Source of the DNA: Candidatus Omnitrophota bacterium
GTDB taxonomy: Bacteria; Hinthialibacterota; Hinthialibacteria; Hinthialibacterales; Hinthialibacteraceae
DNA: 64,000 bases
NCBI GenBank assembly: GCA_003598175.1
Contig: QZKN01000172.1
Span: forward strand, 1 to 64,000
Direction: 5' to 3'
Below the pieces are notes generated by a model. The model saw only the letters and a list, made by a program, of their open reading frames with translations. It had not been told where the DNA came from and did no database searches. Of the stretch, positions 57,688-63,960 are shown in pieces. Within the stretch, counting starts at the first letter, position 1, and each line of letters begins with the position of its first letter. A program made the translations under genes and the position numbers.

Positions 57688-60402
57688 TCAAATCGGCGGC
57701 TCCTTTCGTTGCTCTGCCTGGGAAATTTTATATTCCCCGAATCCATCCAGCAACTGCCGGAACGTTTTCGGCGGATATTTTTGGAAACTCTCTTCGTCCA
57801 CATAGACAAAATCATAGACAACATCCGACTGAACGCGGTTGATATCCTCACACCACTGCCGTAGTCGAGCCATTTTCTCCGGCACATCCAGGTCTTCCTG
57901 TCCTTTGGTTTCAACGATGACGATATGATGATTCGAAAGTTTGACTAAAAAGTCCGGGTAGTAGTTGGAAATGTCGCCGTTCGCGTTGACATAGTCCAGC
58001 TTGAAATGCACAGCCAGATAGTTCTTGGCGAATGAGACCACATCGCCGCAATTCTCGAGAAATCTCGCAAACTCAAGTTCCAAAGGGCTGTCTCCAATGA
58101 TACGGTTGAAGACGCTTTTTCTGGGAACAAGATACCCTTGATCCTTGGCGACAAAAGGCCGGGTTTGTCGCAACTTGATCGTGTCGCGGATTTCGGCGTC
58201 GCCTTTGTCTCGCACAGTCAGCGCGTTTATCGCATTTGTAAAGGTATCGATCAACGTCTTGGCAGCAACCATTTCCGACAAATTACGCAATGTATTTGGA
58301 TTTTCCAGTTCCACCATGCGGTCAAATAATTTTTCACGCACAAACGCCTTAACCTTGCCATACAGAACGTCGTAGCCGCTTACCAACCGTAAATCCTTCA
58401 TGATGGTCTGCGCAAAGTAACCGATTACGCTGCGATAATCAGCCACACCCGCCGTGTCCAAAATCGTGGTATGCGTCGCCTCGCCCGTGGTGATGTCTTT
58501 AAAAACGATTTCCCGTTGTTCCTCTTCGCTGAACTCGCGGTACTTCACGCGTGGATGCCTGATCGCGGCGATGTCCATATCGCTCAGGCTTTTGTATTCT
58601 CGATAGACGCGCGGCGTCAGCACCGGAATTTCAATATCCAGCGCAGTGATGTCCTTCTTCTCGTTTTCCTTATCCACTTCGATCACCAGCGGAGTCTTCG
58701 GCCCGGTTCCTTCCCCCATCGCCTTGCGCTCCAACACCACACCTTCGGCTTGGATGGATTCCACGAAGTCCATAAAGGCATCGGTGCCGACTACGCTGAC
58801 GTACTCTTCCACATCGACGGGATACATTTTTCGCAATCCGCGTCCCAGTGTCTGTTCGGGTAGAATATTGCTCTTCGCGGAATAGGCGCGCAGCCCGACA
58901 ATCGTGGTGACGTTGCGCACGTCCCAGCCCTCTTTGAGCATCATGACGGAAATGATCGCCTTGTATGGGCTGTCCGAGCCGTCAATGGCGTTGGCCTGCC
59001 CGCGCAGTTTCTCCAGTTCTTCCTTGGCTTTGCCCGACGCCGCTTCGGAAATCTCGCCGTTGTTTTTCGTGTGAATGACCAGCACGGCGCCTTTCAATTC
59101 CGCGTAATTCTCCTCCAAATATTCGGCCACGTCGTCGCAGTTGCGGGTGTCGTCGGTCATCACGAACAGGATGGCCTTTTTGCCCATCTTTTCGTGTTCG
59201 GTATACGCCTTGCGCCACTCGATCACGCCGAGGTGAATGTAATCGGCGTATTTTTCGGTGTACCGGGCGCTTTGACGCTCCGCCAGTTTGGCGCGACTGG
59301 GGGCGTCGGGCAGGACGGGATGCTTGACCACATTCTGCGAGATGGCTTCCACCAGCGGGTAATCGGCCACGGTCTGCACGAAAATCGCGCCGTTGTTGTG
59401 CCTGGGTGTGGCCGTCGTGTCCACCTGCATGGAAAGGACCGCTCCCTTCTGCTTCAGCCGGTTGTGAATGTCTTCGATGGATTTGAACCAGGCCATGCGC
59501 GGATCGTGAATATGATGCGCTTCGTCATTCAACACCATCAGTTCGTCGATATCCCGAACGATCATGCCCAGGTCTACTTTGGAATCCGTGGTCGCGCCCG
59601 TGGGCCGCTTGCCCAGAAAATAGTCCCGCAGATCTTCATCGTCCGGCGACGGTGGAATGTCCTCGCCCGAATACACCCGATGAATGTTCGTCAGGAAGAT
59701 ATTGCCCGTGTGGCGCGTCACGCGCACTTCGTCCTGAAGATGCAGCGTCAACTGAAAATCTTCCCGCCAGTTGCGCCCGTCAAACCCGTTATCCGGCAGC
59801 ACCGGATCATGGAAAAAGATACGAAGCCCCTGGAAATCGCGGTAAACCCGATCCAGGACGATGATGTTGGGTGTAATGACCAGAAAGTTGCGCGCCAGTT
59901 GCGATTCCGGCTCGTATAGTTTATGAAAAAAACTCCACGCCAGCGCCAGGCTCAACACTTTGGTCTTGCCGCTGCCTGTCGCCATCTTCACCACGAAACG
60001 CCGCCAGGTCTCGTCGAACATCCCGGCTGATACAACTCCGGAACTGTCAAAGCGCATCAGATCGTACTTGTCCTGCACTCCCACCACATCGTAGAGATAG
60101 ACAATCGTCTCCAGCGCTTCTCGCTGTGCGAAGTAGTATTCAAACTGCGTCACGGTCCCGTCGACTCGCGGCAACAGGTGCGGCGTGTTGAACCACCAAT
60201 TGAGCAGGCTGCGGCTGGTATCCGCCGCGCCTGCATACCCTCCATCCCGAAACTCCTTGACTTTGCGACGCAGCGTTGGCACGAGCGGCGGCATGAGTTT
60301 ATCCATGCTGCTTTCCCGCAGCGCCTCATCTTCGGGAAACCAGCGGATGCCCGGATCGAGAATTGCGTGGGGGGATTGCGAAAATTCTTTATGCAGCGCC
60401 AT
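57688..60402 (-). CDS. Type III restriction enzyme, Res subunit (DEAD/DEAH helicase-nuclease)
   Basis: Walker A 'MATGSGKTKVLSLALAW', DEAH box 'VLNDEAHHIHDPRM', 'LPEQTLGRGLRKMYP', C-terminal nuclease-like 'YYPDFLVKLSNHHIVIVETKGQED'. Confidence 0.92.
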   Translation of the reverse strand: MALHKEFSQSPHAILDPGIRWFPEDEALRESSMDKLMPPLVPTLRRKVKEFRDGGYAGAADTSRSLLNWWFNTPHLLPRVDGTVTQFEYYFAQREALETIVYLYDVVGVQDKYDLMRFDSSGVVSAGMFDETWRRFVVKMATGSGKTKVLSLALAWSFFHKLYEPESQLARNFLVITPNIIVLDRVYRDFQGLRIFFHDPVLPDNGFDGRNWREDFQLTLHLQDEVRVTRHTGNIFLTNIHRVYSGEDIPPSPDDEDLRDYFLGKRPTGATTDSKVDLGMIVRDIDELMVLNDEAHHIHDPRMAWFKSIEDIHNRLKQKGAVLSMQVDTTATPRHNNGAIFVQTVADYPLVEAISQNVVKHPVLPDAPSRAKLAERQSARYTEKYADYIHLGVIEWRKAYTEHEKMGKKAILFVMTDDTRNCDDVAEYLEENYAELKGAVLVIHTKNNGEISEAASGKAKEELEKLRGQANAIDGSDSPYKAIISVMMLKEGWDVRNVTTIVGLRAYSAKSNILPEQTLGRGLRKMYPVDVEEYVSVVGTDAFMDFVESIQAEGVVLERKAMGEGTGPKTPLVIEVDKENEKKDITALDIEIPVLTPRVYREYKSLSDMDIAAIRHPRVKYREFSEEEQREIVFKDITTGEATHTTILDTAGVADYRSVIGYFAQTIMKDLRLVSGYDVLYGKVKAFVREKLFDRMVELENPNTLRNLSEMVAAKTLIDTFTNAINALTVRDKGDAEIRDTIKLRQTRPFVAKDQGYLVPRKSVFNRIIGDSPLELEFARFLENCGDVVSFAKNYLAVHFKLDYVNANGDISNYYPDFLVKLSNHHIVIVETKGQEDLDVPEKMARLRQWCEDINRVQSDVVYDFVYVDEESFQKYPPKTFRQLLDGFGEYKISQAEQRKEPPI

Positions 60403-60408
60403 GTTTGA

Positions 60409-61269
60409 TTACTTGCCTTTCTTTTTTGCGGGCGTCCCAGCCATATTGAGCTGCTTATGCTGTTTGGTCTCGATTTTTTTGATGCTTTCCGCCGCAGGCA
60501 ATTCCTCGGGCATCGTCCCGCCCAATTCCTGAATGGTTTGTCGCACTTTCGCGCCGACTTCATGATGCGTTCGGTTCGCCGCTGCTTTTCCTTTAACCTC
60601 GTCCCGGCGCAGTTTTTCCTCGGTCTGAGTCGCCCGGAACAGGTTCGCCGCCAATTCCGTGCTGCCCATGTGATCCAGAATCTTCTGGCTTTTTTTTAAT
60701 CCTTTCCGCCGGTGGATGTCTTCCTGTTTCAAACCACCATAGAGTCCCATATACCCATGATTCTGAAAGATGGCGTAGTCTATCGGCTCGATAACACCTG
60801 CCCCTTTGGCCGCATCTGCCAGTTGGAGGTTATGGCGGCGCATTTCCTCGCGAAGCAGAAGCCGACGTTCCTCCTCAATGCGTTCATCTTCCAGTTCCTG
60901 TCGCCGCGTCTGGATGGCGAAATAGGTCTGGCCTTGCGCCACAATCTCTTTCCTTGGATCGGCGTTCTGGATTGCCAAATAACAGGCATAACGCGACATG
61001 AGTATAGATTTAACCGATCGTTGGCCCCCCTTGCCGATCTCGATCATTTCGGTGACGTCAACGAAATGATCCTCGATGCGGTGTCCACTGTTGAAACAGG
61101 CTAACTTGGCCTTCTCGATGACACCTTCAAAATTGCGGTAATCACCATATCCCAATACTTCGGCAAAATCCCGACTCGACCAAAACTCCATGCCGGCATC
61201 GTTCGTCCTCCTGATCTGCTCAAAGGGTGACGCATGCCCATTGGTTGTCTTCACAATTTCCTTCGCCAT
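60409..61269 (-). CDS. dinD: DNA damage-inducible protein D (DinD)
   Basis: 'SPFEQIRRTNDAGMEFWSSRDFAEVLGYGDYRNFEGVIEKAKLACFNSG...FVDVTEMIEIGKGGQRSVKSILMSRYACYLAIQNADPRKEIVAQGQTYFAIQTRRQEL'; start overlaps the mod stop. Confidence 0.9.
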   Translation of the reverse strand: MAKEIVKTTNGHASPFEQIRRTNDAGMEFWSSRDFAEVLGYGDYRNFEGVIEKAKLACFNSGHRIEDHFVDVTEMIEIGKGGQRSVKSILMSRYACYLAIQNADPRKEIVAQGQTYFAIQTRRQELEDERIEEERRLLLREEMRRHNLQLADAAKGAGVIEPIDYAIFQNHGYMGLYGGLKQEDIHRRKGLKKSQKILDHMGSTELAANLFRATQTEEKLRRDEVKGKAAANRTHHEVGAKVRQTIQELGGTMPEELPAAESIKKIETKQHKQLNMAGTPAKKKGK

Positions 61270-62162
61270 TATTTCTTTCCTCCGTTCTTTCCAATGCTCA
61301 CGTCCACAATCGTCATCGTGTCGTTGCCGAAGATGTCCACTACCTTGACCGCGATCTTGCGCCGCCCCGGTGTGCATTCGTGGAAGATGCTCTTCAGCTC
61401 CAGCGAGCGGTCTTTCTTGGTGCGGAAGCTCTGCCACTCGTTTTCAAAGATATAATCCCCCGTCCAGCGTTCCTCCCATTCGCCGCTTTCCTCGTTCCTG
61501 ACGCGGATGATCTCGCGCTTGCTCTCGAAATTGAAATCCACCGCCCAGTAATCGATCCAGTCCGTCCAGTTCTTCGTCAGCGTTTCGCGCGTGACGATGC
61601 CGTTTTTGTCCTTGCTTACTTTGACGATCTGCCCCTTTTCCACCACGATCCGGCTGGCTTTGTCCTTGAGCGTGGCTTCGGCGTTGGCTATCGAGTCTTG
61701 TGAATAGAATACCGAGAAGTCGGTCAACTCTACTGCCACTGCGGGCGGGACTCCCGCGCTCCCTTTTTTGCCTTCGCGGACGTGCGGTTTAACCTCGATG
61801 GCGGCCACGTCGTGGAAGACCACCTGGTTCTTTTCCACCGCCCGCTTGTCGAACACCTCGGCGGGGATGTATTTGGGCGCGATGTCGATGCCTTTGGCGC
61901 GGGCTTCGTCCAGCACGTTGGGAAACAGGCCCATCTCGAACTCGAAGCCCAGAATATCGACGCGGGTGATGTGTTTCCGGCGGCATTCCAGGATGATCTC
62001 TTCCACGAACAAGCGCGTCACCGGCAGGTTGACCGGCCCCACCGCCACCAGCCGCCCCGCTTTCTTGCCGTGGAACGCGGCGAAGTTCTCCACCTTTTCG
62101 GCGCGGTAGGCGCGCAGGATCAGGTCGAGGAACGCCGCTTCCTTCTCCTCGATCTGTTTGCG
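61269..62162 (-). pseudogene. C-terminal part of type III methyltransferase (mod), separated from the N-terminal part by an in-frame TAG
   Basis: Reading past the TAG at 62165-62163 in the same frame gives 'RKQIEEKEAAFLDLILRAYRAEKVENFAAFHGKKAGRLVAVGPVNLPVTRLFVEEII...', continuous with ORF 61269..62093. Confidence 0.8.
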
Positions 62163-63524
62163 CTACTCTTCTTCGCGCAGGTTGGGATTGACGCCGATAT
62201 AGTGCTGCCGCTCGTATTTGCCCAAGTTGAGGATTTCAAAGGCGCGGTAGTCCTTGCCGTCGGCTTTGAGCTGCCGCTGCACGCCGATCAAGCGCTTGCG
62301 GGTGGTGTGGATGGCGAACTTGCCCAGGTCGGTAACGATCCACTTGCGCCCCAGCTTTTCCGCTACCGCCGCAGTAGTGCCGGAGCCGCAGAAAAAGTCC
62401 GCCACTAAATCGCCTTCATAGGTTCCCGAACCAATAATCCGTTCAAGCAGTTCATTAGGCTTTTGTGTTGGATATTTTGTATTATCAATGGGTTTAGGTT
62501 GGTATGAAGGGAAATCATCCCATACGTCCGATGCCAAGGTTCCTTTTTCCGGATCATCAACATATGTAATAGTATGAGCCTTTGACTCTCGTTCAGAGTC
62601 AGTAGCTTTGCGGCTCATTCTCCGTCTTGTATAGAACCATCTCCCCTCAGAATCTTGCTGCATTGTATCACGAACATAATCACTGAAAGGAACCCTTACT
62701 TCAGGCGATTTTTCGTTGATTTTGAAAGCGTTACCCTTCTTGAACCATAGTATTGTCTCATGGGCCTTCGGTAGTCGTCTTCCGTGTGCGCCACCCATAA
62801 TCTGATGTTTCCATATTAATTCCCCAATTATCCTATCCTTACCAAAAATCTCATCCATTACCATCCTTAAAAAACCAGTTACCCGCCAATCGCAATGCAC
62901 ATAAATACTCCCATCCTCCGCCAGCAAATCCCGCATCAGCACCAGCCGCTCGTAAATCATGGAGATAAAGGAATCCGCCCCCTTGCCCCACGTGTCGCGG
63001 TAGGCGATTTCTTCGAGGATGTTGGGTTTTTTTGTGAAGGTTTCCCCCCGGTTTCCCCCCAAGCTTGGGGGGACGGAAGAGGGGATTTCGATATCCATGC
63101 TGAAATCCGCGCCCACGTCGAAGGGCGGGTCGATGTAGATGAGTTTGAGGCCGCCCTGCTTTTCGATTTCCTCGCGCAGCGGGCCGTTTTTCAGGCTGGA
63201 GAGGATGAGTTTGTTATCGCCCCAAATCAGTTTGTTGGTCCAGCCCTTGAGCTGGCGGCCGCGCTCGTCCAGACTGAACAGAAACTCCTGATCTTTGTCT
63301 TTCCGCTTCACGTCTTCCGGCTTCTCGGCGCGCGGTTCGTCCACCTGCTCGATCACCTGAAAGGGCAGGACGATGCTGCAGACCTCGCTGGTCTTGCCGT
63401 TCCAGACCAGCTCCACCTCCCGCTTGTCTTCAAACAGCAGAAAGCGGTATTTGTCCGGCAGCGGTTTGTCCGCTTCGATAAAACGGATGATTTCCTGTTG
63501 TTCCTGTTCGGTCAGCCGTGGCAT
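62163..63524 (-). CDS. Type III site-specific DNA methyltransferase (mod), N-terminal part up to the in-frame TAG
   Basis: beta-class order: 'LIYIDPPFDVGADF' (DPPY-type motif IV) before 'LVADFFCGSGTTAAVAEKLGRKWIVTD' (motif I). Confidence 0.9.
   Translation of the reverse strand: MPRLTEQEQQEIIRFIEADKPLPDKYRFLLFEDKREVELVWNGKTSEVCSIVLPFQVIEQVDEPRAEKPEDVKRKDKDQEFLFSLDERGRQLKGWTNKLIWGDNKLILSSLKNGPLREEIEKQGGLKLIYIDPPFDVGADFSMDIEIPSSVPPSLGGNRGETFTKKPNILEEIAYRDTWGKGADSFISMIYERLVLMRDLLAEDGSIYVHCDWRVTGFLRMVMDEIFGKDRIIGELIWKHQIMGGAHGRRLPKAHETILWFKKGNAFKINEKSPEVRVPFSDYVRDTMQQDSEGRWFYTRRRMSRKATDSERESKAHTITYVDDPEKGTLASDVWDDFPSYQPKPIDNTKYPTQKPNELLERIIGSGTYEGDLVADFFCGSGTTAAVAEKLGRKWIVTDLGKFAIHTTRKRLIGVQRQLKADGKDYRAFEILNLGKYERQHYIGVNPNLREEE
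63055..63072. repeat. Perfect 18-bp palindrome inside mod
   Basis: CCCCCCAAGCTTGGGGGG, inside a C/G-run-rich block 63041-63088 that encodes 'IPSSVPPSLGGNRGETF'. Confidence 0.85.
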
Positions 63525-63960
63525 GAATGTCCTCTTCAATTCCCAACATTTTTATTTCGTCGTTTCCGTAAACTATTTCAGCGCCTTTTTATCTGATTCG
63601 CAATCCAAAACACAAACGCTGCCAAATATGTCATTTCTCGCGGCGACGTAGAACCGCGGAAATTTTTCGCACAATTTCCTCTTTGGTTTCTCGTATTTCC
63701 ATGTTGCCGTCTTTGCCAACCATTTCAGCATCATTCCTTCTGATCTGCAATCCGAAACGCGGACGTCGGCCCTACGGCAGGGTTGATGATTCAATCGAAA
63801 TGATGCAGCCGAATGAATGGATTGGAACAACGTCGCCGCATACAGATGCAAAGCCTATCGATAAATAGTCGCAGCCATAGAATTCCTGGTCATGCGCATA
63901 ATTCCAAATGAAATCCCATTGTCCCCTTGGCGCTCCGTTAAAAACACATTTTGATATAAA

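Follow-up and report, generated by a model that had tools for sequence, protein, structure and literature searches.

One in-frame amber codon in the mod gene of a type III-like restriction–modification operon: probably a recent nonsense mutation

In a Candidatus Omnitrophota bacterium (contig QZKN01000172.1) the mod gene of a type III-like restriction–modification locus is interrupted by a TAG codon, and we asked whether this codon marks a recoded gene, two separate genes, a switchable gene or simply a broken one. The window, i.e. the whole stretch of DNA that was analyzed, comprises 64 000 nt, and mod is located on its minus strand, where the frame 63524..61269 reads MPRLTEQEQQ...NPNLREEE-TAG-RKQIEEKEAAF...SIGKNGGKK-TAA. 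The TAG at 62165..62163 is the only interruption, and the frame remains unchanged across it. The features of the locus are:

57688..60402, minus strand: res, 904 aa, intact, with Walker A ATGSGKT, DEAH and a C-terminal PD..ExK
60409..61269, minus strand: dinD-like gene (DNA damage-inducible protein D, Bro-N; NF008573, 4.6e-122), between mod and res
61269..62162, minus strand: mod 3' part, 297 codons plus TAA; encodes the conserved C-terminal module of Mod in an open frame without decay
62163..62165, minus strand: amber TAG, codon 454; a sense codon at 95 of 95 sites in relatives, CAG at 34
62163..63524, minus strand: mod 5' part, 453 codons plus TAG; N-terminal part and methyltransferase domain with DPPF, TRD and FCGSG
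62478..62837, minus strand: TRD, residues about 230–349; G+C 0.43 versus 0.55–0.59 in the rest of mod
63045..63080, minus strand: in-frame insert SSVPPSLGGNRG, encoded by a repeat with palindrome CCCCCCAAGCTTGGGGGG; not present in the aligned homologues

The geometry of two long ORFs separated by an in-frame stop proves nothing by itself, because 14 such pairs (each ORF ≥120 codons) occur in the window. The two ORFs are one gene because single homologous ORFs span the site in 94 loci, and reading of the minus-strand frame together with these homologues confirmed what the sequence-only reading had claimed, namely that a single amber codon splits mod without a frame change. It had joined the ORFs 62163..63539 and 61269..62093; translation most likely starts at the ATG at 63524 and not at the TTG at 63539, as judged from the homologues, which begin with MPRL or MARL. 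Counted from this ATG, 453 codons precede the TAG and 297 follow it. The assignment as a type III mod likewise held: the homologues agree with it, and the 5' part matches PF01555 (N6_N4_Mtase, 5.5e-44) and the PADLOC MTase_III profile (8.4e-95). The order of motifs is that of the beta-class N6/N4 type III Mods, with DPPF (132–135) before the variable TRD (about 230–349) and the AdoMet motif FxGxG, here FFCGSG (377–382), after it; PMC8259958 accepts DPPY/F as a motif of type III Mods. For the C-terminal part the tail of the PADLOC MTase_III profile (positions 559–616) was the sole match, with none found in Pfam, NCBIfam, PHROGs or the PDB sequences.

The remainder of the locus has the organization of a type III operon. 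The genes mod, dinD and res lie on one strand, the TAA of mod overlaps the ATG of dinD (TAATG) and a 6-base gap is also present; dinD is intact. Res combines an SF2 helicase with a C-terminal PD-(D/E)xK nuclease, its motifs ATGSGKT, NDEAHH and YPDF..VETKG are conserved, and it matches PF04851 (2.2e-14) and PADLOC REase_III (1.7e-22). In 417 columns that are invariant among 12 homologues it departs only twice.

We then considered the genetic code. The sequence-only reading had regarded genome-wide recoding as unlikely and had pointed to TAG as the end of CheX-like, HDOD and radical SAM genes; all three proved to belong to real families (CheX, HDOD and B12-binding/radical SAM). The release factor gene prfA (RF1) was found above the cut-off, while the best PylS match reached 20 bits against a cut-off of 178 bits. 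ARAGORN recognized 37 tRNA genes, none of them with the anticodon CTA, and a pattern search aimed at tRNAs with a CUA anticodon yielded nothing beyond known tRNAs for Ser and Arg and sequences that are not tRNAs. Since the scan scored 150 of 268 candidates in a genome that is 92% complete, these searches fall short of proving the absence of a suppressor tRNA. From RF1, the lack of a PylS match above the cut-off, the failure to find a CUA tRNA and the recognizable genes that end in TAG we conclude that amber recoding is unlikely in this genome, and both genome-wide recoding and pyrrolysine were rejected as explanations.

Homologues of mod were collected by tblastn and pattern scans from plasmids, IMG/VR contigs, one genome of the same class and genomes of many phyla, and uninterrupted genes were observed, among others, on plasmids of Aminobacter and Sinorhizobium medicae. 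The final set comprises 94 loci with 95 sites; as only best matches were kept, intact genes may be over-represented in it. The codon homologous to the TAG is a sense codon at all 95 sites: it encodes Gln at 53 (CAG 34, CAA 19), Lys at 27, Arg at 12 and Ser, Thr and Ala at one each. Two relatives, L051 and L058, share the identical local context NPNLREEE[Q]RKQIEEKE and carry CAG there, so that one C-to-T change (CAG, Gln454, to TAG) would be the simplest origin. The earlier proposal of this change is thus supported, CAG being also the commonest codon at the site. Homologues that naturally end at the same residue and are followed by a separate downstream gene, which would have spoken against a broken gene, were found in none of the 94 loci, and a natural two-gene form was rejected; apparent internal stops in L028, L052 and L082 turned out to be merely the normal C-terminal ends. 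A search of IMG/VR for a near-identical allele with either CAG or TAG gave no match. In one Poribacteria genome (L080) two complete mod genes of the same family lie close together, with res upstream.

How long the stop has been present was estimated from the constraint on both halves. At columns conserved in at least 95% of the 94 sequences, the window Mod departs at 2 of 158 before the stop, one of these adjoining the inserted peptide, and at 0 of 117 after it. Compared with L048, the window mod is 84% identical with a dN/dS of about 0.06–0.07 in the compared parts (TRD excluded), and the polarized changes after the stop amount to 6 nonsynonymous and 33 synonymous on the window branch versus 4 and 26 on that of L048. 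A simple Poisson bound, which is rough and holds if the 3' part has been neutral since, would place the stop within the last ~8% of the branch. Beyond the stop the gene shows no damage, so that the stop is either recent, or an artefact, or tolerated by way of some full-length product.

Among known systems, the Mods of EcoP15I (4ZCF), 6K0W and Mbo45V share with the window the beta-class order DPPF–TRD–FxGxG and adjoin a helicase–nuclease Res. Compared to EcoP15I-type systems the window differs by dinD between mod and res and by the amber codon inside mod. Direct homologues are encoded by the Aminobacter plasmid pANY103c (WP_286299875/WP_286299876; Mod 71% and Res 82% identical), in which mod is uninterrupted at the TAG site and no dinD separates mod from res, and by some 90 further loci from many phyla, again with mod uninterrupted at this site. 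A single uninterrupted polypeptide that includes the Res-contacting C-terminal part is encoded in these homologous loci and not in the window, and by this comparison the window mod is, as judged from its sequence, a member of the family whose gene is broken. Premature stops that silence Mod while the locus otherwise stays are known from phase-variable or pseudogenized type III mod genes of Neisseria and Mycoplasma agalactiae (PMC6789123, PMC9465063). The window resembles them in that the rest of the locus is retained, but there the changes are reversible repeat-length frameshifts, whereas the change here would be the substitution of one base. Phase variation by repeats was rejected, since the frame is unchanged and the TAG is not accompanied by a repeat tract.

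What the truncated protein would retain was evaluated with an AlphaFold model of the read-through Mod, which has a mean pLDDT of 66 with low confidence over much of residues 24–181 and was used only near residue 454. In this model residue 454 is located within a predicted helix (451–473) that joins the methyltransferase core to an alpha/beta plus beta-rich C-terminal module. Fold and sequence searches of the PDB ranked type III Mods first (6K0W, 4ZCF). The Mod dimer of EcoP15I is built from the N-terminal and methyltransferase domains, the CTD of one Mod contacts Res, and Mod2 alone methylates (PMC4490356). By analogy, a 453-residue Mod would keep the cofactor-binding and catalytic, recognition and dimerization parts and lose the Res-binding end. 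A literature search for C-terminal truncations of type III Mods returned none.

Taken together, we consider it probable that the window contains an ordinary type III-like restriction–modification operon whose mod was hit by one very recent C-to-T nonsense mutation, giving a loss-of-function allele. Translation would stop within the linking helix, and restriction would then most likely be off and the cell unharmed, since the Res of type III systems is active only as part of Mod2Res. Expression of DinD and Res may fall as well, since the TAA of mod overlaps the ATG of dinD and the stop is situated ~890 bases earlier, so that translational coupling into dinD could be lost. However, an absence of decay beyond the stop is also what would be expected if the stop were suppressed, belonged to a minority strain or had entered as an error of sequencing or consensus. 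The main rival is that the dominant allele is CAG and the TAG a base error or minority variant, which we regard as unlikely overall. The assembly is a draft of 192 contigs with 91.8% completeness and 4.1% contamination, and an otherwise undamaged mod is what would be expected of a population that lacks the stop; against this, deep consensus usually eliminates single base errors, the assembly contains no second copy of the mod locus, and no near-identical record for comparison was available from IMG/VR. A recent mutation followed by continued methylation differs from our preferred explanation in the consequence of the stop and not in its origin: the 453-residue Mod would remain an active dimeric methyltransferase and only the docking of Res would be lost. 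The domain roles in EcoP15I and the position of all catalytic motifs and the TRD before the stop are in favor of this outcome, but the cut falls inside a conserved helix, the C-terminal module of about 280 residues is far larger than the 106-residue CTD of EcoP15I, and none of the relatives uses a short form, so that we think it improbable.

Of the four options offered by the sequence-only reading, a recent inactivating mutation and a sequence or strain variant are thus favored over a functional split or readthrough, given that 0 of 94 loci are split and RF1 is present. Two halves that assemble, or an amber readthrough that yields some full-length Mod, would explain why both halves are constrained as in the intact relatives, and in the model the break borders on the methyltransferase core; yet the stop is placed in a helix and not in a linker, and translation of the 3' part could begin no earlier than at a GTG located 23 codons past the stop, beyond a conserved helix, with the first in-frame ATG at codon 531. 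No relative is split at the site, no CUA tRNA was found beside RF1, and we consider a split or readthrough very improbable. The RNA fold around the TAG is not unusually stable (z = −0.27), by which a readthrough-promoting RNA element was rejected, and no promoter or terminator was found within the break. We give the least credence to the idea that the amber codon is kept as a functional device, with low readthrough or an active 453-residue Mod uncoupling methylation from restriction; if true, the cell would normally make a Mod that only methylates, alongside small amounts of the full-length form that recruits Res.

Other members of the family carry broken mod genes too. Independent nonsense codons occur in L084 (codon 47, TAA) and L092 (codon 225, TAA), in L038 the middle of the gene is missing, and in L044 (found with L040 in G011, a genome of the same class) the stretch homologous to residues ~68–590 is replaced by another, short sequence, which may resemble a DUF559-type nuclease. 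Because of these cases sporadic loss of mod is, as far as the sequences indicate, normal in this family. The res beside the L044 mod seems internally deleted. A type III Res depends on Mod for recognition, and losing Mod first, while Res is still present, does no harm. Unless the TAG is a base error, the window would show a defense system just as it is being lost, with its Res partner intact and in the order that is safe for type III systems. The amber codon in mod is most likely an ordinary event in an ordinary restriction–modification gene and not a new genetic trick, and for annotation the two ORFs should be read as one gene, neither as two functional proteins nor as a recoded gene.

The surrounding family, in which the cargo carried between the two genes varies, is of more interest than the stop. 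The TRD of the window is common only to L048 among the close relatives printed (both IWKHQIMGGAHGR), and this sharing together with the low G+C content suggests that recognition domains are exchanged by recombination. The loop that carries SSVPPSLGGNRG holds another insert, GPSTGSGQ, in L052 and L057, and the only other place in the genome with the repeat containing palindrome CCCCCCAAGCTTGGGGGG is a cluster of four copies on contig C22 (G000:C22:33724-34118). A second small in-frame insertion (AGVPPA region, about 61741–61763) in the C-terminal part is missing from most homologues. A dinD between mod and res was also found in 6 relatives. In loci L033–L127 mod and res are separated by no interval (<60 bases) in 25 of 86 cases and by >350 bases in 52, and res is located upstream in 8; the intervals encode, among others, DinD, KilA-N, Fic, HepT-like, SLFN_AlbA_2 and AAA-ATPase proteins. 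The mod–res interval thus looks like a variable cargo slot, a docking site for defense genes within a type III operon.
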